Shown here: one piece after another, positions 13,875-61,811 of the stretch
Layout of the letters: each line of letters opens with the position of its first letter
How positions within the stretch are numbered: the stretch's first letter is position 1
From: Arthrobacter sp. KBS0703
GTDB lineage: Bacteria > Actinomycetota > Actinomycetes > Actinomycetales > Micrococcaceae
Direction: 5' to 3'
Assembly (NCBI RefSeq): GCF_002008315.2
Contig: NZ_MVDG02000001.1
Span: 558,001-622,000 of the forward strand
Length of the DNA stretch: 64,000 nucleotides
Translations under genes and position numbers: made by a program
The notes under the pieces: model-generated
Told to the model about the DNA's origin: nothing
The model's input: only the letters and a program-made list of their open reading frames with translations
Database searches by the model: none

Positions 13875-13904
13875 GGCGACCAGCTCCGGCGGTGCCGTAC
13901 ACAT
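13875..13904 (+). promoter_or_regulatory. Element-type promoter (GGNNAS-N14-CCGYACACAT)
   Basis: GGCGAC, 14 bases, then CCGTACACAT, ending 7 bases before the ATG at 13912 of the phosphoesterase gene. Confidence 0.6.
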
Positions 13905-13911
13905 GGGAGGG

Positions 13912-14700
13912 ATGAGCGAAATTAGTGCGGAGCACAATGAGGTGGACCATTGGCCGGACGAGCTTCTGGTCGCCGGTGACTGGCACGGGAACACCATTTG
14001 GATGGAGAAGGTGCTGCGGGCCGCTGCCCGTAGCGGACACAAAACGATCATCCATGTCGGTGACCTGGCCGTCCTGTGGCCGGCGGCCAACGATAACGAC
14101 AAGTTCACGAAGGTCCTGAAACGGCGCCTGGACGAGCATGATTTGACGCTGGTATTCGTGGACGGCAACCATGACGTGCACCCGAAGCTGCGGGCCCTGC
14201 CTGTGAATGAAGACGGCTTCGGTGTGATCAATGACCGGCTGCTGTACGCACCGCGCGGGCACCGTTGGAATTGGTCGGGGGTTCGGTTCGGGGCCCTAGG
14301 CGGGGCATATTCGGTGGACCGCCGTTCCCGGAAGCTGGGCAAGTCCTGGTGGGAGGGGGAGGAAACCAGTGAGGCCGACGTCTGTCGCTTGGGCCCGGGC
14401 CGTTTGGACGTGCTGATCACCCATGAGGTTCCGGCAGGGATTGACGTCGTGTCGGAGTTCTCCTTCGGGCTGCCGAAGGTCATTGAGCAGGAGGCGTACG
14501 CCAACCGCCTGTTGGTCCGGGACGCCGTTCGCAATACCGAGCCCCGACTGGTGTTTTCCGGTCACTGGCACCAGCGGCGCAGCGCACTGATGCCGAACAT
14601 GGGCACCCAGGTTCATGTCCTGCACATGGACCAGTTCGAGGGCAATGTCGTGGCCCTGAACTTGAAAACTCTGGGAGTTCGGGAGTACCCGCTGGACTGA
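13912..14700 (+). CDS. Calcineurin-like metallophosphoesterase
   Basis: 262 residues with the metallophosphoesterase motifs in order: G-D-W-H-G-N (near 24), H-V-G-D-L-A-V (near 50), V-D-G-N-H-D (near 84), I-T-H-E and G-H-W-H-Q-R (near 220). Together these supply the two-metal site. The substrate is unknown; such enzymes on phages and plasmids act on nucleotides or phosphoproteins. ATG at 13912 is preceded by GGGAGG. The gene sits in the accessory region and carries the repeated upstream promoter-like element. Confidence 0.85.
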   Translation: MSEISAEHNEVDHWPDELLVAGDWHGNTIWMEKVLRAAARSGHKTIIHVGDLAVLWPAANDNDKFTKVLKRRLDEHDLTLVFVDGNHDVHPKLRALPVNEDGFGVINDRLLYAPRGHRWNWSGVRFGALGGAYSVDRRSRKLGKSWWEGEETSEADVCRLGPGRLDVLITHEVPAGIDVVSEFSFGLPKVIEQEAYANRLLVRDAVRNTEPRLVFSGHWHQRRSALMPNMGTQVHVLHMDQFEGNVVALNLKTLGVREYPLD

Positions 14701-14787
14701 AGCACCATTACGGAGACGCGTGGTGCGGTTCCCTCGTCTTTCGTGACTGGTATTGCTTACCAGGTGTGCGGCACTAGGCTCTCGGGC

Positions 14788-15480
14788 ATGATGAAGAATC
14801 TTACGATTGGTGGCCTGAAGGTCAGCGTCGGGCACGCCAAGGAGTTGGCCGGGGAGTATATGAACCAGCCCGGCAGATGGTCCTACCCGGCGTACGACAG
14901 CTATCCGGGCAACGGTGATCCGGACACGATCGGCCCACAGGACGTGCTGGCTGCCGGGCTCCTGAACGCAGGGCAGAACCCGCTGACGACCCAGTACACG
15001 TTCGAGAGCCTGTCCCATGAGATCAACACCCGGCTGGGGAACGTGCCTCGGTCCACCCTCGACATGGCGGACGATCCGACGCTGGAGGTGATCGCGCACC
15101 TGTTCGGTGTCCTGGACCGGAAGGAACGGCCCCTGTCGGTCCGGTTGACCAAGCTGAGCAAGGTCCTGCACCTGAAGCGCCCGGGCCTGCTCCCGCTGTA
15201 CGACGACCACGTCTGGCGGGCCTATAGCAAGCTTGGAAACGTCCGGGTCCAACCGAAGTTAGGCCGCGGCTGGAAGGATTTCGCCCTCGCTTGGCTGCCT
15301 GAGATCAGGAAGGACCTCCGCGACGGACTGGAGCACTGGACGGAAATCGCCGGCCTCGCCCCGGTCGACGGCCCTACTGTCACCCCGCTACGCGCACTGG
15401 ACATGGTGGTCTGGCGTCTGGTTGAGGAAGTGGCCCCGCGGCCGCGTAAGCCCAGGCGCTCCAATCAGGTACCGGCATAG
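14788..15480 (+). CDS. DUF6308 family protein
   Basis: About 230 residues resembling the uncharacterised actinobacterial DUF6308 family. Recognisable segments are L-L-P-L-Y-D-D-H-V-W-R-A-Y, preceded by R-L-T-K-L-S-K-V-L-H-L-K-R-P, and the final L-R-A-L-D-M-V-V-W. Tandem ATG codons at 14788 and 14791 give the start. Function is unknown. The family is frequent in mobile and defence-associated contexts, but nothing here fixes a role. Confidence 0.7.
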   Translation: MMKNLTIGGLKVSVGHAKELAGEYMNQPGRWSYPAYDSYPGNGDPDTIGPQDVLAAGLLNAGQNPLTTQYTFESLSHEINTRLGNVPRSTLDMADDPTLEVIAHLFGVLDRKERPLSVRLTKLSKVLHLKRPGLLPLYDDHVWRAYSKLGNVRVQPKLGRGWKDFALAWLPEIRKDLRDGLEHWTEIAGLAPVDGPTVTPLRALDMVVWRLVEEVAPRPRKPRRSNQVPA

Positions 15481-15521
15481 CAAGGCCGCGCACCTGCGGG
15501 CCCTCCACCACGGTCCAGTCG

Positions 15522-15746
15522 TTGTTGGAGCCGTTGCGGATCCAGATCGGCTACCGCGGCGAAATCCAGGTATGCCTGCTGAACACGGACCGGAACAAAG
15601 CAATGGACTTCAAGCGCGGAAACCGTATCGCCCAGTTAGTCATCCAGCGGATCGAAATCGCCTCGTTCGCCCGAGTCGATGAGCTCACTGAATCGGTCCG
15701 CGGCACCGGCGGCTTCGGCTCCACGGGAGGCTTCGCGGCGCCCTGA
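15522..15746 (+). pseudogene. dUTPase (dut) 3' fragment
   Basis: Encodes only the C-terminal half of a trimeric dUTP diphosphatase: Y-R-G-E-I-Q-V-C-L-L-N-T-D (motif III), R-G-N-R-I-A-Q-L-V-I-Q (motif IV region), and the Gly-rich end R-G-T-G-G-F-G-S-T-G (motif V). The substrate-binding and catalytic motifs I and II, which should lie about 80 residues earlier, are absent. The preceding sequence is unrelated, so this is a truncated remnant, probably of phage or plasmid origin. Confidence 0.8.
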
Positions 15747-15940
15747 TGCCGTCTGACGTGCGGCTTTACTGAAGCCGCAGGGCGGAGCGGCCCGGACCTG
15801 ATGCTTGCCAAAGTGTCGGATGATGCTGCTAATGTGTGGAACGCAGCACGTCAGGAAAGACCGTATGGTGGCCTGACAAGCCTTGAATCAAACATATGCA
15901 GCAGCCGACTACCTAACGGAAAAGGTCTGCCACTGCGAAG

Positions 15941-15976
15941 AAGCCCCGGAACCTCGAACGTCCCGGGGTTTCTTTG
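15941..15976 (+). terminator. Rho-independent terminator
   Basis: Stem AAGCCCCGG with CCGGGGTTT (one G-T pair), 13-nt loop, followed by CTTTG. It lies in the gene-free stretch 15747-16118, which otherwise shows nothing supportable. Confidence 0.6.
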
Positions 15977-16118
15977 CGTCCAGGGGTAGTAGCCCCTCCG
16001 CCTTCTTTGTGTGCGGCCCGCGGGCGTTTCGATCAGCGGTGAGGGCGTTCCGGATTCCCGCACACATTGGCAGTACCGGCAGGGAGCCGGGAATGCCGAT
16101 ACCGGAGGACCGAACACC

Positions 16119-16544
16119 ATGGCTACTTTCAACCTGGACGAGCTGCTCACCATCAACGACAGCGACCCGATCACGTACTCCGAGGGCCACCCGGGCGCCG
16201 GTAACCCGCAGGCCCTCTTCGGTCAGGACCACTTCGGCGGACCGCAGCTGGCCATGTTCGACAAGACCCACCGCGGCACCGACCTGTACACCACCTACAG
16301 CGTCGGCGGCTGGGAAGCCGGGAACTTCCACCGGGTCATCTGCGAGGGACCGCTGGTCGAAGGACCGCACGCCTGGATGAGCGCCAACGCCACCGTCCTC
16401 ACCGCCCACAAGCAGGAACGCCGCGAACAGATCCTCGTCGCCGAGGGCGACACAATCATCCTCCGAGGCACCGAATACGCCATCAGCCAGGACCGCTACG
16501 GCTACATCAAGCTGACCCCGACCCCAGTTTCGGCCGAGGCGTAA
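16119..16544 (+). CDS. Hypothetical accessory protein
   Basis: 141 residues, M-A-T-F-N-L-D-E-L-L-T, acidic at first, no membrane segments, Trp/His/Gly-rich middle (V-G-G-W-E-A-G-N-F-H-R). ATG at 16119 has GGAGGA about nine bases upstream. A perfect terminator follows at once. No family is recognised. Confidence 0.65.
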   Translation: MATFNLDELLTINDSDPITYSEGHPGAGNPQALFGQDHFGGPQLAMFDKTHRGTDLYTTYSVGGWEAGNFHRVICEGPLVEGPHAWMSANATVLTAHKQERREQILVAEGDTIILRGTEYAISQDRYGYIKLTPTPVSAEA

Positions 16545-16551
16545 GCACAGC

Positions 16552-16584
16552 GAAGCCCCGGCGCGGAGACCTTGCCGGGGCTTC
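16552..16584. terminator. Perfect hairpin terminator
   Basis: GAAGCCCCGGC / GCCGGGGCTTC, an 11-bp perfect stem with an 11-nt loop, placed between two convergent genes. It likely serves both. Confidence 0.8.
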
Positions 16585-16595
16585 TACGTGTCGCC

Positions 16596-17306
16596 CTAGT
16601 ACTGGATGTCGGCGATCTTCCAGTTGCCGTCCACGACCTTCATGGTGAAGGTGTACGTGCCGGTCACGGGAATGGTGTCGTTCTTGTCGTACTCCGTGCT
16701 GATGCGGTTCTCGGACGCGTTACTGCTGTTGGTCCAGCTGACCGTGAATTCCGCATGTCCCTCGTCCGCCGAGCCGGACACATTTCTGACTTCGCCGGTG
16801 GCGGCCATGGTGCGTTTGTACGGCACCGAGTCCTCCCATGTGATCAGAGCGCGCTCGATCGTCGCCACGTTGATCTTGGTCTCCGTAATTTTCATGTGGC
16901 TGAGGCGCGGGTTGGCTTCAAAGCCTTCGACGAAGAGTGCCTTTGTGACCAGCTCGGCACCCGCTTCCGCAATGGGCTGTGCGATCTCAGCTGGCTTCTT
17001 GTTAGCGTTCGGATCCATGTACTTCTCATTGGTTTCCTGGTTTGCTCCGTAGTTCTCCCAAGCGGTCCACCTGTCATCCAGAATGGCCTTGGCCAGGCTC
17101 TCAACCGGATATTTATCGACGGGAAGCTCGAACGACGCAGCAGTAGCAACTGTGCTGACGGCCGAAGGGGACACAGAGGCGGCAGGTGATGAGCTGGCGG
17201 CTACCGGCGCCGAAGCAGGTGCCGCCTGGGGCGAGGAGCACCCTACCAATGCGGAAGCCAGGAAGGCTGTAAGGCAGGCTGCCCCCAGGGTCGTTTTAGC
17301 TGCCAT
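16596..17306 (-). CDS. Secreted lipoprotein of unknown function
   Basis: 236 residues. It has a classic type II signal peptide: basic start, hydrophobic stretch, lipobox L-V-G-C-S at about 20-24. An Ala/Ser/Pro/Val-rich linker of some 35 residues follows, then a globular domain ending in V-V-D-G-N-W-K-I-A-D-I-Q-Y, which recalls the closing strand of NTF2-like or SnoaL-like domains. No catalytic motif is seen. Confidence 0.75.
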   Translation of the reverse strand: MAAKTTLGAACLTAFLASALVGCSSPQAAPASAPVAASSSPAASVSPSAVSTVATAASFELPVDKYPVESLAKAILDDRWTAWENYGANQETNEKYMDPNANKKPAEIAQPIAEAGAELVTKALFVEGFEANPRLSHMKITETKINVATIERALITWEDSVPYKRTMAATGEVRNVSGSADEGHAEFTVSWTNSSNASENRISTEYDKNDTIPVTGTYTFTMKVVDGNWKIADIQY

Positions 17307-17384
17307 GATTCCCCCAAATATTGTGATGAGCTGGCGCCAGTATATTGGTCGTCCGCACCAGGCTTGTGGAAATGACCGACGCTT

Positions 17385-18101
17385 CTAACCGTGGAGTGCC
17401 GCCACGGCCTTGGCTGCCACCTGGATGCTTTCCCAACCCCGCCGGCCAGCGGCAATAGTGCGGCGGTCGAGTGCGACGCCCTTGTTCTGAAGGATCGCTA
17501 CCAGGGTCGCGTTCACGACATCCTCGCGGAGCTCGCTCAGCCAAGGGCCACGGATGTTCGGCATGACCGGAATGCGGGCCCGGATGGTCAGGAAGTGCCC
17601 GCCAATCATGGCCGCCGCGAAGCAGATGATGCCGATGATAAGCAGCTTCAGGTAGTTTTCCTGGTCGGTGGCCACAATGTAAGCGGGCGGTGCGATCAGT
17701 GCCGCCATCAGGCCCAGACGCATCGCCAGGATTGCCCGGGCACTGCCGGAGGCCTTGCGGCGGGCCACGGTGCCGGCCAGCTGCTTGTCCCGGACAGCCT
17801 GCGCCTTCAGCCGCCACTGGCGCTGCGAACCCAGGTGAAGCTGGACGAGGGCGCGGGCCGCGGCCAGCTCCTCCGGGTTCTCTTTCCGGAGGGCGGTCAC
17901 GACCGGGTCCTCGGCGTCGGCCCAGGCACTGTCCAGGCGGCGGTCGATGGCGGCGGCCATGTCATTCAGACCCAGGCGGGCTGCGGCTTCGGCGGTTTCT
18001 TCGACGCGGAGCGGCTGTGCCGGGCTGGTTTGCTGTGGTGTTCCTTCGTGGCGGGCGCCGTACCGCGGCGACCCGTCGACGAGCTGATATTCATTGCTCA
18101 T
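17385..18101 (-). CDS. Two-helix membrane protein, 'DGSPRYG' paralog A
   Basis: 238 residues. It starts M-S-N-E-Y-Q-L-V-D-G-S-P-R-Y-G. A soluble helical N-terminal half of about 130 residues precedes two membrane helices (LGLMAALIAPPAYIVA and LLIIGIICFAAAMIGGHFL). The C-terminal domain contains D-V-V-N-A-T-L-V-A-I-L-Q-N-K. It is a tandem paralog of the next gene upstream, with the same layout. Last gene of a four-gene operon (19620 to 17385). Family not recognised. Confidence 0.7.
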   Translation of the reverse strand: MSNEYQLVDGSPRYGARHEGTPQQTSPAQPLRVEETAEAAARLGLNDMAAAIDRRLDSAWADAEDPVVTALRKENPEELAAARALVQLHLGSQRQWRLKAQAVRDKQLAGTVARRKASGSARAILAMRLGLMAALIAPPAYIVATDQENYLKLLIIGIICFAAAMIGGHFLTIRARIPVMPNIRGPWLSELREDVVNATLVAILQNKGVALDRRTIAAGRRGWESIQVAAKAVAALHG

Positions 18102-18218
18102 TGTTTCCCCATATCGTGGCCCGGCTGCGGGTCCTTCGGTTGCTGCACGCCGGACTGGGCCGGCGGCTCTGCCGGTCCGAGGATCATTGTCCATGGCAAC
18201 GGTCGGCAGGCTGGATTG

Positions 18219-18968
18219 TTACGGCTGCGCGGGGTTGGTCCGCAGTTCCTGCGCCACGGTGGCGACGTAGCGGGTGTGGTTCCAGCCGCGGAGCGCGGCC
18301 TTGACGGTGCCCTGGTCGAGCGGGATGTCCTTGCTCTGCAGGACAGCCACCAGGGTGGCGTTCACGACGTCGTCCCACAGGAATCGGGCGTCCTCGCGGT
18401 CAATGCGGGTCGGCAGGCTGCCGGGGTCCACGGTCCGGCCCAGCTTCCGCTGGATGGGGCGTGTACCCAGGTAGATGCCCAAGACGATGACCAGCGAGAT
18501 CAGGGGAGGGGCTTTCGTCGCGGCAAGACCGATCACGATGACCAACATGGCCACACTGAGTCCGATCGACATGAGCGACGCAGCCAGTTGCCGCATGAGG
18601 GTGCCGTCCATCTGGGCTTCCTCGATAACGGCTTCTGTGTACGCAGTCTTGGCGCCACGCATCCACACCGCCGGGGAGTCCAGGCGCTTGGCGACGGTGG
18701 CCTCGGCTTCCTTGAGCTCCTCGGGGTGGTCTGCCCGCAGCCCGGAGATTATTTCGGCGTCGGCGTGGTTGTACTTGTCGAGGACGAAGCGGTGCTGCAC
18801 AGCCAGCTTCAGTTCGGCAGCGTCCAGCAGTGCAGCGGCGTCCGCCGTCTGCCCGACCCGGATGAGGTTCGGGGCGGTGGCAACCGAAACTTGGGCCAGG
18901 CCGGTGGTGCGGATGCCGTATCGCGGCGAGCCGTCAGCCAACATGTACTCGGAGTTGTTGCGGATCAT
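18219..18968 (-). CDS. Two-helix membrane protein, 'DGSPRYG' paralog B
   Basis: 249 residues. It starts M-I-R-N-N-S-E-Y-M-L-A-D-G-S-P-R-Y-G and, like paralog A, has a helical N-terminal domain, a central hydrophobic pair (SIGLSVAMLVIVIGLAA and ISLVIVLGIYLG) and a C-terminal D-D-V-V-N-A-T-L-V-A-V-L-Q-S-K. Start overlaps the upstream gene as ATGA. The conserved C-terminal domain (L-D-x-x-T-x-x-A-x-x-R-G-W) may face the cytoplasm. Function unknown. Confidence 0.7.
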   Translation of the reverse strand: MIRNNSEYMLADGSPRYGIRTTGLAQVSVATAPNLIRVGQTADAAALLDAAELKLAVQHRFVLDKYNHADAEIISGLRADHPEELKEAEATVAKRLDSPAVWMRGAKTAYTEAVIEEAQMDGTLMRQLAASLMSIGLSVAMLVIVIGLAATKAPPLISLVIVLGIYLGTRPIQRKLGRTVDPGSLPTRIDREDARFLWDDVVNATLVAVLQSKDIPLDQGTVKAALRGWNHTRYVATVAQELRTNPAQP

Positions 18969-19345
18969 GCAGCCACCTGCTCCGCCTTGGCCCGGGCCTC
19001 CCGCGCTTCTTGGGCGGTGGCCGGGCTGTACCCGGTGAGCGCGTTGACTGTGAGGCCGACGAGGATGTCCCTGTCGGTGCCGCCGACAGTCAGGTGGCGG
19101 TGGATCGCCTCAAGGCCGCGGGTGTGGCGCTTGAGCTCCTCAGCGAAGCGCTGATCCGAGCCAGTGCCGGCCGCCGAATTGCGCAGCGCACTGCCAGCCA
19201 GGCGGAGCATGAATTCGGTGTCGTTACCGCCGGCGAGCAGGTGGTTCTGGATGCCGGTCAGGGCCCGCGACTGCAAATGAAGTCTGGCGTTCTGGCGCGC
19301 AGCTGGGACCTGGGCGGGTGAAGGGACAGCTGTCAGAGTGCTCAT
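18965..19345 (-). CDS. Hypothetical soluble protein of the DGSPRYG operon
   Basis: 126 residues, mostly helical by composition, rich in Ala and Arg. Internal repeat-like segments L-L-A-G-G-N-D-T-E-F-M-L-R-L and L-T-V-G-G-T-D-R-D-I-L-V-G-L are about 47 residues apart, suggesting a duplicated helical unit. Overlaps both neighbours by four bases (ATGA), so tightly coupled. No known family. Confidence 0.65.
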   Translation of the reverse strand: MSTLTAVPSPAQVPAARQNARLHLQSRALTGIQNHLLAGGNDTEFMLRLAGSALRNSAAGTGSDQRFAEELKRHTRGLEAIHRHLTVGGTDRDILVGLTVNALTGYSPATAQEAREARAKAEQVAA

Positions 19346-19620
19346 GATTCATCCTCGTCTTCGTCGGGGTTGTAGGGGCCGGCGGACAGGATCAGCTGCG
19401 GCCAGGTGGGGTCCGTTTGGATGCCTTCGAGGGAAACCTGCGTGGAGACCCCGCTCAGACGGGCGGAGTCGCGGGCCTCGGCGAGCCGGGCCGCCAGGAG
19501 ATCCTGGTTGGCGCGGACCATGGCGAGGAAAGGCTCCGCGTCATTCGCCGTCTGGTCTTCGTTGGTGTACTCGAACGCGAAGGTGATCTTCTCGAGGAAT
19601 TGTTCGAAGTTGGCGCTCAT
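19342..19620 (-). CDS. Hypothetical acidic protein, first gene of the operon
   Basis: 92 residues, M-S-A-N-F-E-Q-F-L-E-K-I, acidic throughout and ending D-E-D-E-D-E-S. The stop overlaps the next start. No clear ribosome site precedes the ATG at 19620. The sequence right upstream is the truncated beginning of the divergent nucleotidyltransferase, so the true start or the native 5' region may have been lost by rearrangement. Confidence 0.55.
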   Translation of the reverse strand: MSANFEQFLEKITFAFEYTNEDQTANDAEPFLAMVRANQDLLAARLAEARDSARLSGVSTQVSLEGIQTDPTWPQLILSAGPYNPDEDEDES

Positions 19621-19647
19621 GGCCACGTTCATTCCATCGACATCGAG

Positions 19648-21054
19648 GTGTACGGGCTCTCCAAAGATGAGGTCCGGAAGGCCCTGCCCGGGGACGTGAA
19701 TGAATTTGGCCCGTCCTTCGGGGTCTTCAACACCTCCCTCAACGGCCAGGACTTCGACGTCGCATTGCCCCGCCAGGACAACAAGACCGGCGACGGCCAC
19801 CGTGGCTTCGTCGTCGAGACCGACCCGAACATGCCCTTCGATGTCGCCTTCGCCCGGCGCGACTTCACCATGAACGCAATGGGCTGGGATGCGGAATCCG
19901 GCGAGCTCGTGGATCCGCTCGGCGGCCGCGCCGACCTCGAAGCCGGCATCCTTCGCCACACCGGAGACAAGTTCCAGGAAGACCCTCTAAGGGTGCTCCG
20001 CGGTGTCCAATTCGCTGGCCGATTCAACATGGAGCTTGCCCCGGAGACGGCCGAGCTGTGCCGGGAGATGGCGCCGGCGTTCCACGAACTGCACAAGGAC
20101 GGCATCTGGAAGCAGTTCCGTAAGCTGAGCGCCGAAGGAACCCACATCTCCAAGGCGCTCGAGGCCCTGCACACCTCCGGCTGGGAGCAGCATTTTCCTG
20201 GCCTGGCGGCGACCCGCGGGGTCCCCCAGGATTTGACCTGGCATCCGGAAGGGCCCGTGCATGTCCACCTCGGGATGGCGGGTGACCAGGCGGCACGGAT
20301 CGCCCGCCGTGACGGCCTCGATGAAGAGGAGACGTCCATCCTGGTCCTGGCCGCGATGACCCACGACTTCGGCAAGGCTCATTCCACGAAGATCGACGAA
20401 GACGGCAGGATCACCTCCGGCGGCCACCACGAAACGGGGGTCGCCCCGGCCAAAGACTTCCTGGAGCGCATCGGCGCCCCGCAGCGGTTCCACGAGAAGA
20501 TCCTTCCGCTGATCCGGGAGCACATGTGCCACAACCCCGGCGGCGAGGCCACGGTCAGCGCCTCCGCGGTCCGCCGGCTGCTGCAGCGGCTGGATAACGC
20601 CGGCGGCGGTCCCACCCTGAAGCAGTGGGCGCAGCTGGTGGAGGCGGACAAAGCCGGCCGCGGTGAAGGGGCCAGGCGCGGCAGGAACTATCTGCCTGAC
20701 TGGCTAGCCATCGCGGACCGGATCGGCAACGAGAAGGCTGTCGGCAAGGCAATGCTCAAGGGCCAGCACCTGGCCGAGGCAGGAATCCCGCGCGGACCGA
20801 TGTGGGCGATCATCGTGACCCAGTCCGAGGAAGCCCAGGACGACGGTGCGTTCGCGGACGAGGAAGGCGCCAGGGAGTGGTTCGCGGCCAACCGCGACGC
20901 CATCATGAAGGAGACGACCCGGCGCCTGCAGAAAGCCCAGGCAGCGTCCGAGAAGAAGAAGGCCGCGATGGCGATTGCATTGAAAGCGCGGCAGGAGGAG
21001 CAGAAGGCTGCGGCGCGGGCTGCCAAGGCGGCCAGACAGGCGGCTGGATCCTAA
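19648..21054 (+). CDS. CCA-adding / poly(A) polymerase-like nucleotidyltransferase with HD domain, N-terminally truncated
   Basis: Resembles bacterial tRNA nucleotidyltransferase fused to an HD domain. Present: V-Y-G-L-S-K-D-E-V, F-G-P-S-F-G-V-F-N, A-R-R-D-F-T-M-N-A-M-G-W-D, G-G-R-A-D-L-E-A-G-I-L-R-H, then the HD motif M-T-H-D-F-G-K-A-H and E-H-M-C-H. Missing: the N-terminal G-G-x-V-R-D and the first aspartate of the catalytic pair. The frame runs back into a region antisense to the neighbouring operon gene with no good start (GTG at 19648 is only a candidate). A Lys/Ala-rich tail closes the protein. Probably non-functional or misassembled at about 19,620. Confidence 0.75.
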   Translation: MYGLSKDEVRKALPGDVNEFGPSFGVFNTSLNGQDFDVALPRQDNKTGDGHRGFVVETDPNMPFDVAFARRDFTMNAMGWDAESGELVDPLGGRADLEAGILRHTGDKFQEDPLRVLRGVQFAGRFNMELAPETAELCREMAPAFHELHKDGIWKQFRKLSAEGTHISKALEALHTSGWEQHFPGLAATRGVPQDLTWHPEGPVHVHLGMAGDQAARIARRDGLDEEETSILVLAAMTHDFGKAHSTKIDEDGRITSGGHHETGVAPAKDFLERIGAPQRFHEKILPLIREHMCHNPGGEATVSASAVRRLLQRLDNAGGGPTLKQWAQLVEADKAGRGEGARRGRNYLPDWLAIADRIGNEKAVGKAMLKGQHLAEAGIPRGPMWAIIVTQSEEAQDDGAFADEEGAREWFAANRDAIMKETTRRLQKAQAASEKKKAAMAIALKARQEEQKAAARAAKAARQAAGS

Positions 21055-21070
21055 GGGTGAAGACAAATGA

Positions 21071-21104
21071 AAAGACTGGCCTGCCGATTGGCGGGCCAGT
21101 CTTT
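21071..21104. terminator. Bidirectional terminator
   Basis: Perfect 11-bp stem AAAGACTGGCC / GGCCAGTCTTT with a 12-nt loop and T/A tracts on both sides, between convergent nucleotidyltransferase and cold-shock genes. Confidence 0.85.
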
Positions 21105-21115
21105 CGTAGAAGCCG

Positions 21116-21319
21116 TTAGAGCGGCTGGATGTTCTCTGCCTGCGGACCCTTGGGGCCCTGCGTAACGTCGAACTGAACCTTCTGGTTCTCGTCGAGGGAG
21201 CGGTAACCGCTGGAGGCGATTGCCGAATAGTGTGCGAACACGTCAGCGCTTCCGTCGTCCGGGGCGATGAAACCAAAGCCCTTTTCGGAGTTGAACCACT
21301 TGACCGTACCTGTTGCCAT
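21116..21319 (-). CDS. Cold shock protein (CspA family)
   Basis: 67-residue nucleic-acid chaperone: [18 protein letters not shown] (RNP1), D-V-F-A-H-Y-S-A-I (RNP2), ending [10 protein letters not shown]. Full-length and intact. It acts by melting RNA or DNA secondary structure. A copy within accessory DNA is common on actinobacterial plasmids and phages. Confidence 0.95.
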
Positions 21320-21453
21320 GCTGTTTTCCTTCACGGGTCGCTGGCCGGTTCCGCTCTTCGGATTACCGTCCCAGCCACTCACAAGCTCGAGCCTATGTGT
21401 CCGATCCGGCTCCCGGCAAGGGATTGCGTCAGAAGCGGAAACCGGTAGGTCCG

Positions 21454-21858: not shown

Positions 21859-21900
21859 TGGTACTCCTGGTGCTCTTGGTGTTCCTGCTACTTACCATCT

Positions 21901-21930: not shown

Positions 21931-21948
21931 GATTTCAGGTGAGGTGTC

Positions 21949-21978: not shown

Positions 21979-21985
21979 GGCGCGC

Positions 21986-54524: not shown

Positions 54525-54549
54525 TGGTTCTCCTCAGCAGGTGGTGGGT

Positions 54550-56610
54550 TCAGGCGGTCTCGGGAAGGCGCAGCAGGAAATGGCCCTCATCAGTAAGTTC
54601 GACGGATCCACCGGACGGGACAAAGATCGTCGTGTCCGGTTCCTCCAGCAGGCAAGGGCCCTCGGCTCGGCCCAGGGCGCCGAAACCACGATGGATGTCG
54701 ATGTCTGTCCGGGTTCCCGCGGACGGTTCGAGTGCCGTACGGCGTGTCATTGCGTGTTTCTCGTCAGAGGCGCCAGCCACGGAAGTCGTCAGTTGCACGT
54801 CGCTTCTACCGACAGCTCGAACCCGGGAGTTGACGAGGAGGATGTCTGTCTCCGTCCACGCCGTACCTGCGCCGAATTCGGCCTCGTAGTCCGCGATGAA
54901 CTGTGCACGGAGGTCATCTTTATCCGACTCTGTGAATGTTCCGCCCTTTAGCTTGGTCGTCACTTCGAAGATCTGACCTACAAACTTCATGTCAGCCTCG
55001 CGGTACACCTCGCGGTGGTCCGCAGGGATACCTTCGGAGGCAAACCACTCTTCCGCTCGACGTTCCAGCCCCGCGAACTCCTCATTAAGCAGCTTTGCCG
55101 GTTGCTGCATCGTCCACGGGCTGGTGCGCACCGCGGAGAAGACCGAGTCTGCGTGCATGAGGCCGTACGCGGAGAAAACGGCGGCATTCCGCGGGATGAC
55201 CACTTCGGTCACGCCGATGTCCTTCGCCAGGCTTGCCGCGAAAAGGCCGCAGGCGCCCCCGAAGCCAACGAGTGTAAACTCCCGCGGGTCGTGCCCCCGG
55301 TTCACAGTGATCTTGCGGAGTGCGTTGGACATCTGGGAACTCGCCAAGCGATAGATGCCTTGCGCGGCCTCGTCCACGGAGATGCCCAGCGGTTTCGCCA
55401 CGTGTTCATCAATGGCACGGCGAGCAAGGTCCTCGTAGAGCTGAACAGATCCACCCAAGTAGTAGTCGGGGTTAATAAGGCCCAGTACCAGTGCTGCGTC
55501 CGTTACCGCGGGGCGCTCACCGCCTGCGCCGTAACAAGCCGGTCCTGGCTTGGAGCCGGCGCTGTGAGGGCCTACACGCAGGAGGCCTCTGCCGTCGATC
55601 CAGGCAAGGCTGCCGCCGCCGGCCCCAATGGTCTCAATGTCTACTGCGGTCAGACTAGTCGGCAATCCGCCGATTTCTGCCCGGGCGAGAAGCCTCAGCT
55701 CGCCATCCATGATCGCAGCAGCGTCTAGACTGGTTCCGCCCATGTCAGCGGTCAGGACTTTGGTCCGTCCCAACTGCTTGCCCAGGAGGCGGGCACCGGT
55801 GACTCCACCGACGGGGCCGGAATTGAACATCGAGATCGGTGCCTTTTGCGTCTCATCGACCGACAGGAAGCCGCCGTGCACCTGCATGATTTGCACAGGT
55901 GTCCGCAATCCGCGATCACGCAGCTCATCAGCCAAATGCTGGAAATGTGTGGCCACGAGGGGTTTAACGGCAGCGTCAAGGGCCGTAGTTACCATCCGCT
56001 CATACTCGCGGTAAACCGGTGTCAGGCTGCTGGAAAGGGTAAAGGGCAAATCAGGGTGGTTTGCCATCAGATAGTCGCCGACCGCTTGTTCATGTGCCGA
56101 GTTTCTGAACGACCAAAGGAAACACACCGCGATTGCTTCCGCCCCTGCTGACAGCGCAGCATCAACGGCCGATTTAATCTCAGACTCTTCCAACTGGAGA
56201 ATCACAGAGCCGTGGGCGTCAATCCGTTCGGCGATCTCGAAAATGTTGCGCCGGTTCACGACCTCCGGAGGCATCAGCATCTTGTGGGGGTCCCGCTCAT
56301 CTGTTCGAGCGGACCGTGCGATGCGTAGGGTGTCCCGGAATCCCGCGGTAGTGAACAGTGCGACGGACGCATACTTCTCCTCGTCGACTGCATTCGTGAC
56401 GATGGTGTTGCCCAGGACGAATCGGTCGACAGACTGGAAGAAGTCTGCTTCTCCCATGCCAAGCCGCTCCCGCAGCACTTCGACCGCCGCCAGGATCCCA
56501 GAGGTCACATCCTTGGTTGAAAAGGCCTTCGCCCGATAGGCGACTCCGTCTTTGAGCGCCACGGCATCTGTGAACGTTCCGCCGACGTCGATACCGACGT
56601 GAAGGGTCAT
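54550..56610 (-). CDS. Hydantoinase A / 5-oxoprolinase / acetone-carboxylase-beta-like subunit
   Basis: 686 residues. ATPase-type N-terminal V-G-I-D-V-G-G-T-F-T-D-A-V, G-N-T-I-V-T-N-A-V, and the second phosphate loop A-D-M-G-G-T-S-L-D. The segment I-E-T-I-G-A-G-G-G-S-L-A-W and V-G-F-G-G-A-C-G-L-F-A follow. The family comprises ATP-dependent hydantoin, oxoproline and lactam hydrolases and the ketone carboxylases. First gene of the cluster, 25 bases before hyuB. AAAGGAG precedes ATG 56610. Divergent from the regulator gene. Confidence 0.92.
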   Translation of the reverse strand: MTLHVGIDVGGTFTDAVALKDGVAYRAKAFSTKDVTSGILAAVEVLRERLGMGEADFFQSVDRFVLGNTIVTNAVDEEKYASVALFTTAGFRDTLRIARSARTDERDPHKMLMPPEVVNRRNIFEIAERIDAHGSVILQLEESEIKSAVDAALSAGAEAIAVCFLWSFRNSAHEQAVGDYLMANHPDLPFTLSSSLTPVYREYERMVTTALDAAVKPLVATHFQHLADELRDRGLRTPVQIMQVHGGFLSVDETQKAPISMFNSGPVGGVTGARLLGKQLGRTKVLTADMGGTSLDAAAIMDGELRLLARAEIGGLPTSLTAVDIETIGAGGGSLAWIDGRGLLRVGPHSAGSKPGPACYGAGGERPAVTDAALVLGLINPDYYLGGSVQLYEDLARRAIDEHVAKPLGISVDEAAQGIYRLASSQMSNALRKITVNRGHDPREFTLVGFGGACGLFAASLAKDIGVTEVVIPRNAAVFSAYGLMHADSVFSAVRTSPWTMQQPAKLLNEEFAGLERRAEEWFASEGIPADHREVYREADMKFVGQIFEVTTKLKGGTFTESDKDDLRAQFIADYEAEFGAGTAWTETDILLVNSRVRAVGRSDVQLTTSVAGASDEKHAMTRRTALEPSAGTRTDIDIHRGFGALGRAEGPCLLEEPDTTIFVPSGGSVELTDEGHFLLRLPETA

Positions 56611-56850
56611 GGTGTTCTCCTTTGAATCCGAAATTGTTTGAATCGCGCTCAGCGGGGCTTGTCCTTGATGTCTTCCTCGATAGTGAAGGTGGGACTTCCC
56701 AAGTTGAGTATCTGTACGATCTGGACCGAGTCTACGCGTGCCGTATGACGAGTACCATGTGGTTTAAACACTCTGTCGACGGCATGATTGTGGCCATTCC
56801 ACATACAAAAGGGACGTCTTACCGGTCGGGGCGCAGGGAAGGAAATGACG
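56611..56850. promoter_or_regulatory. Divergent control region hyuA / regulator
   Basis: About 240 non-coding bases between divergent genes, lower in GC than the flanks. It presumably holds promoters for both and the binding site of the GAF/PucR regulator. No exact operator could be fixed by eye. Confidence 0.4.
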
Positions 56851-58692
56851 ATGAACGAGAGTGAGAGCTGGGTTGCAGGCCAAGCGCAGGGCACGACGCG
56901 GCAACTCCGCGAGGTCCTGGCTAAACACGTTCGCAGAGAAGCCGAACTCGAGGAGCTCAACCACGCGGCCCGGGATCTTACGAGAATTCGCGAGGTCGAG
57001 CACACTCTCCGTAAAGTCACCGAGCGCACGAAGCGGCTTTTGGACTGCGACGTTGCATATCTCTCGGCAGGAGTTGAGGGCGAAGGCGACTTTGCCGTCC
57101 GCGCCTGGTCCGGCAACCTTTCCCCGGCATTTCTGGGCATACGCGTAAGTGTCGGAAACGGTGTCGGAGGCGCAGTCGCTGCTACGCGCCAGCCGGTTCA
57201 GGTGGAGGACTACTTGCGCGCACCTGAGATCGAACACAACGATTATCTTGATAGCCACGTCCGAGGTGAAGGTATCCGAACTCTTCTGGGAGTGCCTTTA
57301 GAAGTCGACGGACGTCTGCTGGGTGTGTTGTTCGCCGGCAGGCGCACACCCTTGTTGTTTCAGGAATCAGAAATTGTCCTGGTCAGTTCGCTGGCAGCCC
57401 ACGCCGCCGTCGCGCTAGACAATGCCCAATTGTTCGAGTCGCAGGAGACGACGATGCGGGAGCTGCAGAGGTACGCATCGCTCCTGAAAACCCAGAATGA
57501 GGCTGCGGAGGCCTCCGCCGAGGTGCACGAGCAGTTGACTCAAGTTCTGCTCCGGGGTGAGGGCGTAGGCCACATCATGGCGATCATCGGCCGCGCCCTC
57601 AAGGTCGACGTCGCGATGATCGATGAGGCCGGGGCAGTGCTCGCCGGGCATGGTGAGAACCCGCCATCCCCGCCCTTCACGGAAGAGGTTGAGGCTGCAC
57701 TGAAACGGAGCCGCAAGACTGGGCGTTCGGTGAGCGCCGGCGGTCCAGACGGGCGGCGGTGGTATGTCGATACGGCTGCAGCAGGCCCGACGTTCCTTGG
57801 GTCCGTGCTTCTTGCTTCAACCCGGGAGCTGACAGATGTTGAAGTGCGAACGTTTGAGCGGGCAACACAGACCACCTCTGTTTCACGATTGGCCGATGCC
57901 GCGATGGCTGAGGCCGAGATGAGGGCATCGAGCGAAGTGATTCGGCGGCTCATCGATCCGCGTCGATCGAGTCTCGACGATCTTGATCGTTTGGCACGGC
58001 GTCACCAGCTGTCCGCCGGACCAGTCACGGTGACGGCATCGGATGCTGAGCACGGCCGAAATGCCGCGCACCTGGCCGCTGCAGTGGCTTTGTGCTCAGA
58101 GACTGGGGGGCTAGCCGCCTGGTACGAGGATCGCCTTGTGACGATTCAGCCCGGCGACCCAAAAGCCGTCGCAGAGTCTCTGTGGAGACGATTGCGATCC
58201 TCGGCCGGCTCCCCCGCCACGGTTTCGGCGGCCGGGCCTGCGAGGTCACTCCTCGAGTTGAGTCACCTCTATCGAGAGTCGGTTCAATGCCTCAAGCTGA
58301 TGCATCAGCTGGGGCGCTCGTCCACGTGGGGGTCGACGGCTGAATTTGGCATCTATTCGATGCTATTTACCGAGGGCGCAAGTGATGGCCTCGACCATTT
58401 CGTAGACAGTAACATCGGGCGTTTGCTTGAATACGACACACGCCACGGCGCGGATCTCGTAACTACTGCAACTGCATATCTGGAGTCATCGAGCAGCCCG
58501 TCAGCGACGGCATCCATGCTTGATATTCACGTCAATACGGTCTCGCAACGGATCTCCCGCATCGACCGGATGTTGGGCCCCGACTGGCGACAGTCTCCGC
58601 GGCAACTGGAGCTCCACACAGCGCTCCGCCTGCACGCCCTTCGTGCCGGCGGACACTTCAATCAAAGGTCAGATCAAATCGCGGATCGCTGA
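56851..58692 (+). CDS. GAF domain / PucR-CdaR family transcriptional regulator
   Basis: About 613 residues. N-terminal coiled coil, then a GAF domain (residues about 55-200: A-Y-L-S-A-G-V-E-G, V-G-N-G-V-G-G-A-V, L-L-G-V-P-L-E-V-D-G-R-L-L-G-V-L-F-A). A second coiled coil leads to a PucR/CdaR-type C terminus, with the helix-turn-helix S-A-T-A-S-M-L-D-I-H-V-N-T-V-S-Q-R-I-S-R-I. Start at 56851 or 56845; GGGAAGG suits 56851. Divergent to hyuA, so most likely the pathway activator responding to substrate. Confidence 0.88.
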   Translation: MNESESWVAGQAQGTTRQLREVLAKHVRREAELEELNHAARDLTRIREVEHTLRKVTERTKRLLDCDVAYLSAGVEGEGDFAVRAWSGNLSPAFLGIRVSVGNGVGGAVAATRQPVQVEDYLRAPEIEHNDYLDSHVRGEGIRTLLGVPLEVDGRLLGVLFAGRRTPLLFQESEIVLVSSLAAHAAVALDNAQLFESQETTMRELQRYASLLKTQNEAAEASAEVHEQLTQVLLRGEGVGHIMAIIGRALKVDVAMIDEAGAVLAGHGENPPSPPFTEEVEAALKRSRKTGRSVSAGGPDGRRWYVDTAAAGPTFLGSVLLASTRELTDVEVRTFERATQTTSVSRLADAAMAEAEMRASSEVIRRLIDPRRSSLDDLDRLARRHQLSAGPVTVTASDAEHGRNAAHLAAAVALCSETGGLAAWYEDRLVTIQPGDPKAVAESLWRRLRSSAGSPATVSAAGPARSLLELSHLYRESVQCLKLMHQLGRSSTWGSTAEFGIYSMLFTEGASDGLDHFVDSNIGRLLEYDTRHGADLVTTATAYLESSSSPSATASMLDIHVNTVSQRISRIDRMLGPDWRQSPRQLELHTALRLHALRAGGHFNQRSDQIADR

Positions 58693-58701
58693 TGCGATCT
58701 A

Positions 58702-59625
58702 TCAGTGGCCCATAGCCATGGCGATTCGTGAGCGCGGCCGGCCCAGGAAATCAGTAATGGTTTGACCTGCTCGTACAACTGCGTCCAGGTCCACGCCGGT
58801 GCTGATTCCTAGACCATGAAGTAGCCACAAGAGTTCTTCCATCGCGAGGTTACCGGTCGCGCTTCCGGCGAACGGACACCCACCGATCCCTCCCGTAGAT
58901 GCATCGAAGCACGTGATCCCGGCACGCAGCCCAGCCAGGACATTGGAGAGTCCTTGCCCATATGTGTCGTGAAAGTGCAGGGCAAGGCGGTTCAGGGGAA
59001 CGCCAGCAGCAACGTGCTCATTTACCAAGGCCGTGACATGCGCGGCGGTGGCGACGCCGATGGTGTCGCCGAGGCTGATCTCATAGCAGCCAGCGTCGAG
59101 TAGTTGGCGCGAAACGTCGGCAACGGCCTTGGTCTCCACAGCGCCCTCCCAGGGGTCCCCGAAGCACATGGACACGTAGCCGCGGACGGTCATGCCGCTC
59201 CTGAGTGCTTCGGCGGCGACTTCTGCTGCCATCTCACAAACCGCCGTTCGGCCCGCGTTCAAGTTCCTATGAGCGAACGTTTCGGTCGCGCTGGCGAACA
59301 CGGCTATGGACTTCACTCCACTCTCCCGTGCTCGTTCCAGCCCCCGCATGTTTGGGACCAGCACCGGATGTCTGATGAGGTCACCGAGCTCCGCGAGGAC
59401 CTCTTGAGCGTCAGCTAGCTGCGGCACCCACTTGGGCGACACAAAACTCGTCGCTTCTACGAGGGGCAGGCCAGCGCCAACAAGCTCCTTGATGAAGCGA
59501 ACCTTAACGTCGGTCGGCACCAGGGTGGCTTCTGCCTGCAGGCCGTCCCGCGGCCCTACCTCGTAAACTACGACATCCTGAGGGAAGTCTTGATCTCGGT
59601 AGACCGCAGGCCGTGGCCCTGTCAC
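58702..59625 (-). CDS. mvaB: Hydroxymethylglutaryl-CoA lyase
   Basis: 307 residues. V-Y-E-V-G-P-R-D-G-L-Q-A-E, N-M-R-G-L-E-R-A, S-M-C-F-G-D-P, L-G-D-T-I-G-V-A, H-F-H-D-T-Y-G and the signature G-G-I-G-G-C-P-F-A carrying the catalytic cysteine. Splits HMG-CoA into acetyl-CoA and acetoacetate. GTG start overlaps the HMG-CoA reductase stop (GTGA). Convergent with the regulator gene. Confidence 0.95.
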   Translation of the reverse strand: MTGPRPAVYRDQDFPQDVVVYEVGPRDGLQAEATLVPTDVKVRFIKELVGAGLPLVEATSFVSPKWVPQLADAQEVLAELGDLIRHPVLVPNMRGLERARESGVKSIAVFASATETFAHRNLNAGRTAVCEMAAEVAAEALRSGMTVRGYVSMCFGDPWEGAVETKAVADVSRQLLDAGCYEISLGDTIGVATAAHVTALVNEHVAAGVPLNRLALHFHDTYGQGLSNVLAGLRAGITCFDASTGGIGGCPFAGSATGNLAMEELLWLLHGLGISTGVDLDAVVRAGQTITDFLGRPRSRIAMAMGH

Positions 59626-60899
59626 GACCTAGTCCCAGTCCGGAGTTCCGCGAGAATCTTCTGAGCAAATTCAGTTCGGACGATCTTCTCACCAACCATT
59701 CGCGCAACTACCTGGTCAATTTCGTGTAGCTCCGCACCGGCAGTCACCGCGATGTTGCGCGCGTGCAGTGACATGTGGCCGCGTTGGATGCCCTCAGTTG
59801 CCAAGGCACGGATGGCACCCGCATTCTGAGCCAAACCCACCGCGAGAATGATGTCCGCCAGATCAGCCGCGGTCTTGACCCCTAGAATGGCGATATTCGC
59901 CTGGGCCACAGGGTGCACCTTGGTGGCGCCGCCGACCAGACCGACAGGCATAGGAAGTTCCAGCGTTCCGACGAGATTTCCGTTTGCGTCCTTCTCGAAT
60001 CGTGACATCGATGTGTACCGGCCATGCTCATCGATCGCATGGGAGTGGGCGCCCGCCTCGACAGCTCGCGTGTCGTTTCCCGTGGCCAGGACAACAGCAC
60101 TAATGCCGTTCATGATGCCCTTGTTGTGTGTGGCTGCACGGTAAGGATCCACAACGGCAAATTCCGCCGCGTCAATCATGTCCTCGACAACCGCCGGTCC
60201 GCCGAGGGCAGCCGCATCGAACACCGCCCGGACTCTAGTGAGCCTGAGATCGGCCTTGTTGGTGAGGATGCGCAAAAGACTTCGCCCGCCAGCGATCTCG
60301 GCGACACGGGGGGCGATGGCTTCAGCCATCGTGTTGACCGCGTTTGCTCCCATTGCATCTCGGACGTCGACGACGAGGTGGAGGACCACGTATGTCTGTC
60401 GCGAGCTGGGTACGAGGCGTACTAGGATGTCGACCGCGCCGCCGCCGAACTTAACAAGCTGTGGATCCTGATCGTTGGCTAATTCGATCAGCTCTCGCCG
60501 GGCCTCAAGGAGCCGGTAACGGGCGCCTACGGGATCGACGACATCGATTACCTGTACTTGCGCCTGCATGAGCGGCGGTGTTGACGTCGTAACGAAACCG
60601 CCATGATCACGGGTCATGCGGGCCAGGTTACTGGCGGCGGCCACAACCGAAGGTTCCTCCGTCGCCATCGGAACGAGAACATCCCGTCCGTTCACAATGA
60701 AGTTCGTGGCGATGCCAATCGGGATACCGAGGACACCTATGGTGTTCTCCACCATGAGGTCTGCCTGCTGGAGACCTAATCCCTGCTCGGGGCTCAGAGC
60801 ATCGAGCCGTCCGGCATCCAGCCCCGCTTCAGCGATTACCTTTCCGCGTCGTTCTTCGACGGTGAAATTCCGAAACCCGGAGAGCCTGCTGTTAGTCAT
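59622..60899 (-). CDS. mvaA: HMG-CoA reductase, class II (degradative type)
   Basis: 425 residues. Class II landmarks: V-E-N-T-I-G-V-L-G-I-P-I-G-I-A-T-N-F (catalytic Glu), N-A-V-N-T-M-A-E, H-N-K-G-I-M-N-G (catalytic Lys), A-T-G-N-D-T-R-A-V-E-A (Asp), and C-terminal H-M-S-L-H-A-R-N (His). In Pseudomonas mevalonii the same gene pair, reductase plus lyase, oxidises mevalonate to HMG-CoA and cleaves it. The coupled arrangement here suggests mevalonate use. ATG at 60899 with GGAAGGA. Confidence 0.93.
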   Translation of the reverse strand: MTNSRLSGFRNFTVEERRGKVIAEAGLDAGRLDALSPEQGLGLQQADLMVENTIGVLGIPIGIATNFIVNGRDVLVPMATEEPSVVAAASNLARMTRDHGGFVTTSTPPLMQAQVQVIDVVDPVGARYRLLEARRELIELANDQDPQLVKFGGGAVDILVRLVPSSRQTYVVLHLVVDVRDAMGANAVNTMAEAIAPRVAEIAGGRSLLRILTNKADLRLTRVRAVFDAAALGGPAVVEDMIDAAEFAVVDPYRAATHNKGIMNGISAVVLATGNDTRAVEAGAHSHAIDEHGRYTSMSRFEKDANGNLVGTLELPMPVGLVGGATKVHPVAQANIAILGVKTAADLADIILAVGLAQNAGAIRALATEGIQRGHMSLHARNIAVTAGAELHEIDQVVARMVGEKIVRTEFAQKILAELRTGTRS

Positions 60900-61189
60900 G
60901 AAGGTCCTTCCATACATGTTTTTTGAGGGCTACTTGCACAAACTCTAGACTTCGTCCGTCAGCGTGGATATGTGTTTGCACCACATCGGCGAGCAATTGA
61001 ATGTGATAAAGATCCACATTTCAGCTTTTCGTGACCGCCGAAAATCAAAAATGGATGTCCCTATATGCGGGTACTTCGGAGCACGAGTAGGGGTGTCCGG
61101 CAGCACGTGGCTACCCAGCCCTGGTTTCCGCACCTTGGACACTCCGAAGAATGCCAGGCAACAGGCTCCGGTCCGGGCAAGTAGGAGCC
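60900..61189. other. Intergenic region between catabolic island and plasmid-like genes
   Basis: No gene seen. Comparatively A+T-rich near 60930-61060; probably contains the mvaA promoter. No repeat or adapter marks the boundary. Confidence 0.4.
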
Positions 61190-61774
61190 CTAAGCGGCGG
61201 CCATCTCCAGCAGGGGATAGAGGGCAGCTTCCCAGTCCTTCCACTCCCGAAGCCGCGGAGCTTCCGCGAGGCTGCGGTTGTAGGACTGGTCGAAGACGAG
61301 GTGCTGCCAGGTCGGCACCATGTTGCCCGTGATGCCCGGCTTGTCGTCGATGAGCACGTCCCCGCGGACCAGGGTCTTGTCATGGGTGAGGATGACCCGG
61401 TTCACCCAGCGGCTCCCGAGGTGCTCTTCAATGGAGGCCAGCTTCTCAGAGGCACAGGTGGCGTGCGTAGCGAACGGCGTGGAGCAGAAGAAGACGTTCA
61501 GTCCGGCCTCCTCCATCGCCAGAACGGCCTCGATTGCCCCGGGCATGGATTCAAGGTTCCGGTAGAGGCCCTCGGTGTTCATGGCCTGCAGCAGGACATC
61601 ACGGTCGCCGCCGGGGCCGCACAGGTGGTTGCAGTCCATCTGCTGGCCCAAGGGCACGATCGGGAAGTTCGGGTCCAGCTGCAACAGGATGCGGTTGAGG
61701 GCGTTGCCCCAGTCGAAGAAGCAGCCGTCCATATCGACAAGCGTGACGGGCCGGCCAGGGGAGGGAGTAATCAT
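61190..61774 (-). CDS. 5'(3')-deoxyribonucleotidase-like HAD phosphatase (NT5C family)
   Basis: 194 residues. HAD motif I V-D-M-D-G-C-F-F-D-W, motif II F-F-C-S-T-P-F, motif III/IV L-T-H-D-K-T-L-V-R-G-D-V-L-I-D-D-K-P. This is the layout of NT5C deoxynucleotidases, which dephosphorylate dNMPs. Start M-I-T-P-S at 61774, chosen because it is exactly 7 bases after the CCGTACACAT element. Such enzymes are frequent on phages and plasmids. Confidence 0.85.
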   Translation of the reverse strand: MITPSPGRPVTLVDMDGCFFDWGNALNRILLQLDPNFPIVPLGQQMDCNHLCGPGGDRDVLLQAMNTEGLYRNLESMPGAIEAVLAMEEAGLNVFFCSTPFATHATCASEKLASIEEHLGSRWVNRVILTHDKTLVRGDVLIDDKPGITGNMVPTWQHLVFDQSYNRSLAEAPRLREWKDWEAALYPLLEMAAA

Positions 61775-61781
61775 GGGCTGC

Positions 61782-61811
61782 ATGTGTACGGCGTTTCCAA
61801 GCAATGTCTTC
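61782..61811 (-). promoter_or_regulatory. Element-type promoter
   Basis: Minus strand GAAGAC, 14 bases, CCGTACACAT, 7 bases before ATG 61774. The only copy right of the catabolic island. Confidence 0.55.

Follow-up and report, generated by a model that had tools for sequence, protein, structure and literature searches.

The stretch of DNA analysed here (the window) comprises 64 kb of the 4.86-Mb genome of Arthrobacter sp. KBS0703 (contig NZ_MVDG02000001.1; G000 C1:558001-622000), and the element in question is a short motif, CCGYACACAY, that recurs in front of genes. The window contains thirteen exact copies, where 100 dinucleotide shuffles give an expectation of 0.49 and a maximum of 2, and the extended form, in which a GGNNA block stands upstream (GGNNA-N15-CCGYACACAY), occurs eight times where none is expected. 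A first-pass annotation, made from the sequence alone, had placed the motif 6-8 bases before the starts of eleven genes: for ten this is borne out, with gaps of 7 or 8 bases, while the eleventh (24983) falls, since the ATG there opens no frame of 45 codons and does not begin a gene, and the nearby ABC ATPase gene really begins at 25018, behind a leader – as is annotated for its counterpart (67305) in plasmid pACHL01. The start at 21986 stays among the ten, with a frame of only 56 codons in the window; its pACHL01 counterpart is a Thg1-family gene (63174-63881). As for two extra copies reported before 33253 and 21858, the second is exact and belongs to a leadered gene, and the first proved to be a variant, CCGCACACAG, at 33290 (minus strand); an exact copy at 16058 (plus strand) had been overlooked. 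The tally is thus ten start-adjacent genes, three leadered exact copies (16058, 24967 and 21910) and one variant (33290).

Other particulars stood. The GG reported at a fixed place upstream is present in 10 of the 13 copies originally counted and in 11 of the 13 exact ones; no exact copy is found in 1-13.2 kb or 44.8-60.9 kb; and most of the 7-8 base gaps hold no ribosome site, with purine runs in those before 13912 (gggaggg) and 35087 (gaaggaac). With these small corrections the repeated motif is confirmed as real.

The motif-bearing DNA lies in a predicted mobile element integrated at a tRNA-Ala gene (13143-13216). The last 44 bases of the gene and the base that follows recur as an exact 45-bp direct repeat (Table 1), a PF00589 integrase gene (L118:2870-4213) lies just inside the right end, and the element, both repeats included, measures 93,473 bp. 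Two portions of it, 13.9-44.6 kb and the DNA from 61.2 kb on, align with five large plasmids at 69-93% identity by piece, with pACHL01 the best match in most places. One more motif copy lies in the element beyond the window (C1:660987), and the genome as a whole contains 38, compared to 11 for the reversed pattern. Where pACHL01 sites could be aligned to the element (14 alignments to 12 distinct places of the island), the motif is intact in 13, and identity is 97% in the motif and 80% in the flanks; for pYJN5-1 the values are 96% and 73%, with seven of seven motifs intact. Such conservation is no proof of use in the island, because selection may predate integration, having acted in the plasmid. 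A comparison of window positions 13000-37000 with a phage collection gave no near match beyond one 402-base gene piece and the tRNA; five viral contigs carry the full motif followed by an ATG, and since each has a single copy they do not point to a viral origin.

The five matching plasmids, all from Micrococcaceae and 375-440 kb in size, are rich in the motif: 166 copies in pACHL01 of Pseudarthrobacter chlorophenolicus A6 (427 kb; reversed control 3), 145 in pYJN5-1 (2), 144 in pPA-B-2242 (4), 135 in the zg-Y453 plasmid (0) and 145 in the zg-Y1110 plasmid (1). Their records are circular, with ParA and pilus genes annotated among about 450-560 features each. In three further plasmids of Arthrobacter, 185 kb, 172 kb and 1.0 Mb long, the counts are 2, 1 and 3 (controls 0, 0 and 5). 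Seven of the first ten plus-strand copies in pACHL01 stand exactly 17 bases before an annotated start (compared by eye). The full motif is present in 105 of 395 family genomes and absent from 290; three genomes lead (G115 with 105 copies, G318 and G323 with 104 each), the next highest having 13, and in a survey of 396 genomes of the order the 361 outside the family have at most one. The plasmid-restricted enrichment that the first-pass annotation had suspected holds across these plasmids and both sets of genomes.

Promoter geometry was analysed in 735 sites pooled from the five plasmids. The GGNNA block is separated from CCG by 15 bases in 504 sites (108, 92, 96, 104 and 104 by plasmid); the second-best of the gaps tested (8-23 bases) is 13, with 62 sites (8, 5, 6, 24 and 19). 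The logo of the 449 sites with a start codon at most 12 bases off reads C-G-G-K-G-A-G at -21 to -15 from the first C of CCG, with little signal thereafter until a K directly before CCG. Start codons adjoin 426 of the 735 sites, and in 357 an ATG begins exactly at position 17, preceded at position 16 by C (80%) or T (18%). In the other 309 sites no 35-codon frame has its start codon at positions 14-20, yet 94% have a purine at 17 and 76% a pyrimidine at 16: at these sites codon choice cannot be the cause of the pyrimidine-purine start. With +1 set at position 17, GKGAGN occupies -36 to -31, ACACAT occupies -13 to -8, and CCGY lies in the extended -10 position. By its sequence the element is thus shaped like a sigma70 promoter, with one block in the -35 register, another in the -10 register, 17-18 bp between them, and a predicted purine start. 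It departs from TTGACA and TATAAT in that the -35 block shares mainly GA with the former and the -10 is CCGYACACAT. TANNNT is the name given to the actinobacterial -10 consensus; this hexamer is absent from the logo of the 357 ATG sites, in agreement with the first-pass view of the -10 block.

Among the 309 sites lacking an adjacent start codon, 257 are followed, 24-150 bases on, by the start of a frame of 60 codons or more, and 128 of these 257 have a Shine-Dalgarno tetramer, compared to only 6 of the 426 start-adjacent sites – a weak contrast, because at the latter the motif fills most of that stretch. The leaderless promoters proposed in the first-pass annotation are supported by the geometry of the pooled sites; beyond that proposal, the analysis adds the leadered sites, a class of sites lacking the -35 block, a plasmid sigma factor as probable reader, and the recognition that the window holds a chromosomal island without that sigma.

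Sites lacking the -35 block (class 2, as opposed to class 1) have features of their own. Variants that differ in the final base are common there: CCGCACACAG and CCGCACACAA occur without the GG block 131 and 38 times in the five plasmids, and with it twice and never. In the five plasmids plus the window, G stands directly before CCG in 231 of 512 sites that have GGNNA; at sites without it the figures are 173 of 236 (T/C-ending), 135 of 139 (G-ending) and 36 of 41 (A-ending), the T/C-ending group being mixed, with many members that keep part of the block. In a sigma70 promoter, loss of the -35 would be expected to go with a stronger upstream edge of the -10. Class 2 also precedes a special gene set: a PxGxPxGG near the N-terminus is encoded at 85 of 267 start-adjacent sites without GGNNA and at none of 291 with it. 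A longer N-terminal tag, RQPKGIPxGGQFAxxxHxEP, is found on 99 proteins – 97 in the five plasmids (16-25 in each) and two in the window (Table 1) – whose remainders fall into 44 groups, with the motif core just upstream in 59 of the 99. The shared tag could be a targeting or sorting signal.

Each of the five plasmids encodes a predicted sigma factor of its own. The pACHL01 protein (990 residues) combines a ResIII/DEAD helicase (32-402), sigma regions 2-4 (571-794) and an HA domain (852-913); PF04542, PF04539 and PF04545 score above cut-off, and all five plasmid proteins align over regions 2-4, which places them by sequence in the sigma-70 family. The protein of pYJN5-1 is the same helicase-sigma fusion (74% identical), and the other three plasmids encode a sigma without helicase. 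A sixth replicon, scaffold 5 of Arthrobacter terrae, has the fusion and nine motif copies within the 21 kb examined, so that sigma is found in six of six replicons and the fusion in three. In five of the six the sigma gene carries a motif promoter of its own; the exception is pPA-B-2242, where the gene overlaps the upstream dut gene. In a tree whose bootstrap is not fully settled, the plasmid sigmas, their close relatives and five further fusions lie on one side of a 99/91 branch, apart from SigA. In region 3.0 (PVHMVE) a His replaces the Val of SigA in all five plasmid sigmas; the ten closest HA-bearing proteins have the His in nine cases and Asn in that of A. terrae. Since it is region 3.0 of E. 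coli sigma70 that recognizes the extended -10, this histidine is a fitting candidate for the link to the motif. An Asp that replaces Leu in RGMLFLD is not specific, because many chromosomal fusions share it.

Among the 395 family genomes, the three rich in the motif are the three with a plasmid-type sigma (510-615 bits) in a profile search that scored the best five candidates per genome; no other sigma-profile match listed exceeds 409 bits, and four further genomes reach the threshold (406-409 bits) with sigmas that belong to the SigA clade. Judged by coordinates, G318 is the zg-Y453 strain and G323 the zg-Y1110 strain, and G115 carries the A. terrae sigma sequence; only one of the three is therefore independent, because two hold plasmids already in the five-plasmid set.

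We consider it probable that the motif is the promoter of this family of 375-440 kb Micrococcaceae plasmids, read via the plasmid-encoded sigma-70 and mostly leaderless. The sites and their geometry, the sigma genes and their co-occurrence with the motif are read directly; from them we infer the start of transcription, recognition by the sigma, and activity, as follows. RNA polymerase carrying the plasmid sigma would read the motif, region 4 contacting CGGKGAG around -35 and regions 2.4 and 3.0 contacting CCGYACACAT as an extended -10. Transcription would begin 17-18 bases after the motif start, mostly at the first base of ATG or GTG, to give a leaderless mRNA; at the remaining genes a leader, often with a ribosome site, would follow the start. 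A second class of sites lacks the -35 block and nearly always has G directly before CCG, and the sigma gene would usually be under its own motif promoter. The genes of the window, as part of a 93.5-kb tRNA-Ala-integrated relative of the plasmids, would be silent or need the plasmid sigma in trans.

Several observations weigh against this reading. The core was matched exactly, so that core positions of the logo lie near 100% by construction, and two of the ten start-adjacent sites in the window (13895 and 39202) carry G, not a pyrimidine, before the start. Regions 2.3/2.4 of the plasmid sigmas keep the FSTYATWWIRQ of SigA, and at what we take to be position T440 they have T, I, S, S and S; the altered -10 is therefore not explained by an obvious change there. 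The genome of the window has motif copies and shows no plasmid-type sigma, and neither do eight others with 5-13 copies that were searched for it (G035, G038, G105, G338, G037, G096, G231 and G029, the last 82% complete and yielding split sigma pieces). Copies in such genomes are therefore relics, or another reader exists; in the genome of the window they would be orphaned and silent or would await the plasmid sigma in trans, and the integrated element may be a relic, or be expressed only when that sigma is present.

Intact copies in island-bearing genomes without the plasmid sigma, and the closeness of its regions 2.3/2.4 and 4.2 to SigA, would also suit a reader in the host: SigA or another chromosomal sigma, with the plasmid sigma a bystander that has some other role. 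A motif read by SigA should be used by chromosomes, yet the full motif is wanting in 290 of 395 family genomes and never exceeds one copy in the 361 outside the family; moreover, high copy number accompanies the plasmid sigma. We regard a host reader as unlikely. Slightly less probable still is an operator, bound by a plasmid-wide activator or repressor and overlapping ordinary promoters in the way that phage stoperators do. The very strict core, the gene-proximal place and the existence of class 2 without the upstream block would suit a DNA-binding regulator, but the element is asymmetric, keeps a fixed distance to the pyrimidine-purine start (and usually to the start codon), has its blocks in the -35 and -10 registers, and is accompanied by no separate TANNNT in the logo. 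That the motif works in RNA as a translation-start element, comparable to the start-associated sequences of cluster K mycobacteriophages, would fit the 426 start-codon sites and is very improbable given the 257 others that precede their frames by 24-150 bases, half with a ribosome site of their own, and the GG block at a fixed 15-base gap upstream of CCG.

For the plasmid sigma, the helicase fusion poses a question of its own. The N-terminal 467 residues of the pACHL01 protein find their best solved-structure match in XPBII (E 1.2e-32; XPBII 6p4f, Rad25 2fwr), and in an alignment of 36 fusions the SF2 ATPase motifs are preserved, Walker A (G-x-GKT) being nearly invariant and DECH and QRLGR invariant; on these motifs the part is predicted to be an XPB/Rad25-type translocase. 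A protein search gave 5520 matches: among the best 120, the ten closest have the HA domain and the other 110 do not, and 12 of those 110 lie on contigs longer than 4 Mb. Of 41 genomes from the genus of the window, three have a fusion. XPB-type helicase-sigma-70 fusions also lie on Micrococcaceae chromosomes (L016:42249-45218; P0011-P0120). As readers of the motif these chromosomal fusions are disfavored: of three such genomes, the two covered by the motif survey have one copy and none (G009 and G344), and most chromosomal-type fusions have PVHMVE in region 3.0. A single fusion event was likewise rejected, as several changes have to be assumed on the tree and the sigma part is SigA-like in some fusions (P0103, P0111); from these partly SigA-like sigma parts it follows that the helicase-sigma pairing may have been made or swapped repeatedly. 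On the three plasmids with unfused sigma, no stand-alone XPB helicase was detected by tblastn with the fusion helicase domain (E 1e-6). The structure predicted for fusion P0002 from a 34-row alignment (mean pLDDT 66.7, pTM 0.38) leaves the domain arrangement unreadable, and the top 50 Foldseek matches listed for it are sigma chains, with no helicase among them. Because three of six replicons do without the helicase, it is not essential to motif reading. A tentative possibility, which we hold to be rather doubtful, is that the fused sigma brings an ATP-driven motor, the translocase opening GC-rich, AT-poor promoters in cis as XPB in TFIIH does for RNA polymerase II; if true, a system of sigma-70 type would open its promoters with ATP, and the plasmid family would run its own transcription program in the host.

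Neither the motif nor the helicase-sigma fusion is described in the literature searched (of limited open-access range). Known XPB proteins stand alone or are subunits of TFIIH; here the translocase lies in one chain with sigma regions 2-4. Among known systems the translocase part comes closest to the XPB/Rad25 translocases, such as archaeal XPBII and M. tuberculosis XPB (PMC3353954), and the fusions conserve the Walker A, DECH and QRLGR motifs. Among sigma systems of mobile elements, the closest described is SigN (ZpdN) of Bacillus subtilis plasmid pBS32, whose promoters were mapped by 5'-end sequencing and which is DNA-damage induced through LexA (PMC6751061). The arrangement predicted here is SigN-like: as with SigN, a plasmid-encoded sigma would serve a plasmid gene set via its own -35/-10 consensus and activate its own gene. 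Unlike in SigN, there are about 100 predicted class-1 sites per plasmid, mostly leaderless and with a GC-rich -10, and the sigma in three of six replicons has the unusual fusion to an XPB-type translocase and HA domain; the likeness drawn here is one of arrangement. In mycobacteria, leaderless genes use a -10 hexamer like leadered ones, and the motif resembles actinobacterial leaderless promoters in its predicted start at the first base of ATG or GTG, the lack of a ribosome site and a -10-like element at the expected distance (PMC4633059); it differs in having CCGYACACAT, not TANNNT, and in being concentrated on one replicon family and its islands. Group 2 jumbo phages are likewise large mobile replicons that bring their own sigma to redirect host polymerase; the plasmids differ in their circular records with ParA and pilus genes, and no helicase fusion is mentioned for the phage sigmas in the accessible part of that source (PMC7824862).

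It appears that the plasmid family uses a promoter code of its own together with its own sigma, and this would keep plasmid and host expression apart. Large plasmids are usually thought to borrow host sigma factors. The code could predict which plasmid genes form one program, and for hundreds of genes it predicts exactly where transcription begins. The XPB-sigma fusion, for its part, raises the question of ATP-driven bacterial promoter opening by a sigma-70 protein. Plasmid pACHL01 also carries its own genes for SecG/SecY/SecE, DNA ligase, DNA polymerase III alpha and ribonucleotide reductase (at 11238-12836, 50166-50444, 303213-305318, 368220-372425 and 397923-404836), and its own Sec, replication and nucleotide genes look like an unusual autonomy for a plasmid.

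Table 1. Motif sites and boundaries of the integrated element in the window (window coordinates).
Feature	Position	Strand	Remarks
attL: last 44 bases of tRNA-Ala (CGC) and next base	13173..13217	+	exact repeat at G000 C1:664601-664645; left element end
Predicted promoter class 1 (GGCGAC ... CCGTACACAT)	13874..13912	+	start codon 13912; metallophosphoesterase gene 13912-14700
Predicted promoter class 1 (GGTGAG ... CCGCACACAT)	16037..16075	+	leadered; ORF start 16093 or 16119
Predicted promoter copy, -35 block without A, G before CCG	21893..21931	-	leadered gene 21454-21858
Predicted promoter class 1 (GGGAAG)	21948..21986	+	ATG 21986; short frame; Thg1-family in pACHL01
Predicted promoter class 1 (GGGCAG)	23616..23654	-	leaderless ATG 23616; gene 23005-23616, no Pfam match
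Predicted promoter class 1 (GGGGAG)	24946..24984	+	leadered ABC-ATPase gene 25018-25947
Variant CCGCACACAG, no -35 block	33273..33311	-	gene 32402-33253 begins 27 bases past variant
Predicted promoter class 1 (GGAGAC)	33818..33857	+	leaderless GTG 33857; HA-domain protein gene 33857-34408
Predicted promoter class 1 (GGGTAG)	35048..35087	+	ATG 35087; GmrSD_C-type nuclease gene 35087-35830
Predicted promoter copy (GGCGCG, no A)	39181..39219	+	ATG 39219; Fic-domain gene 39219-39686
Predicted promoter class 2 (no -35 block, G before CCG)	42077..42115	-	ATG 42077; N-terminal RVPKGIPTGGQF-tag gene 40611-42077
Predicted promoter class 1 (GGTGAA)	42546..42584	-	ATG 42546; ORF 42208-42546
Predicted promoter class 2 (-35 block without A, G before CCG)	44067..44105	-	ATG 44067; N-terminal RQPKGITTGGQF-tag gene 43594-44067
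Predicted promoter copy (GAAGAC block, G before CCG)	61774..61812	-	ATG 61774; NT5C-family gene 61190-61774
Stretch matching pACHL01-type plasmids in long pieces, gapped	13875..44619		holds 12 of 13 exact copies
Stretch without match >250 bases to the five plasmids	44620..61188		no exact motif copy; metabolic genes
Plasmid-type DNA resumes	61189..64000		from 62575 matches pACHL01 238517 onward (conjugative DNA-transfer gene there)

The metabolic genes of the stretch at 44620-61188 include, for example, methylcitrate synthase (so named in related records). The Thg1-family gene of pACHL01 is represented in the window (21986-22799) by the short frame after the promoter and a second frame, with a jump at 22509 in the match to pACHL01. 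A dispersed plasmid repeat of about 460 bp (44133-44605) lies upstream of the class-2 gene at 44067 and is also found four times in pACHL01 (at 8, 131, 222 and 335 kb), four times in pYJN5-1, and at 1495.9 and 1512.6 kb of the host chromosome (G000 C1), which has other plasmid-like stretches with a few motif copies at 1467168-1524994 and 1620023-1626617.

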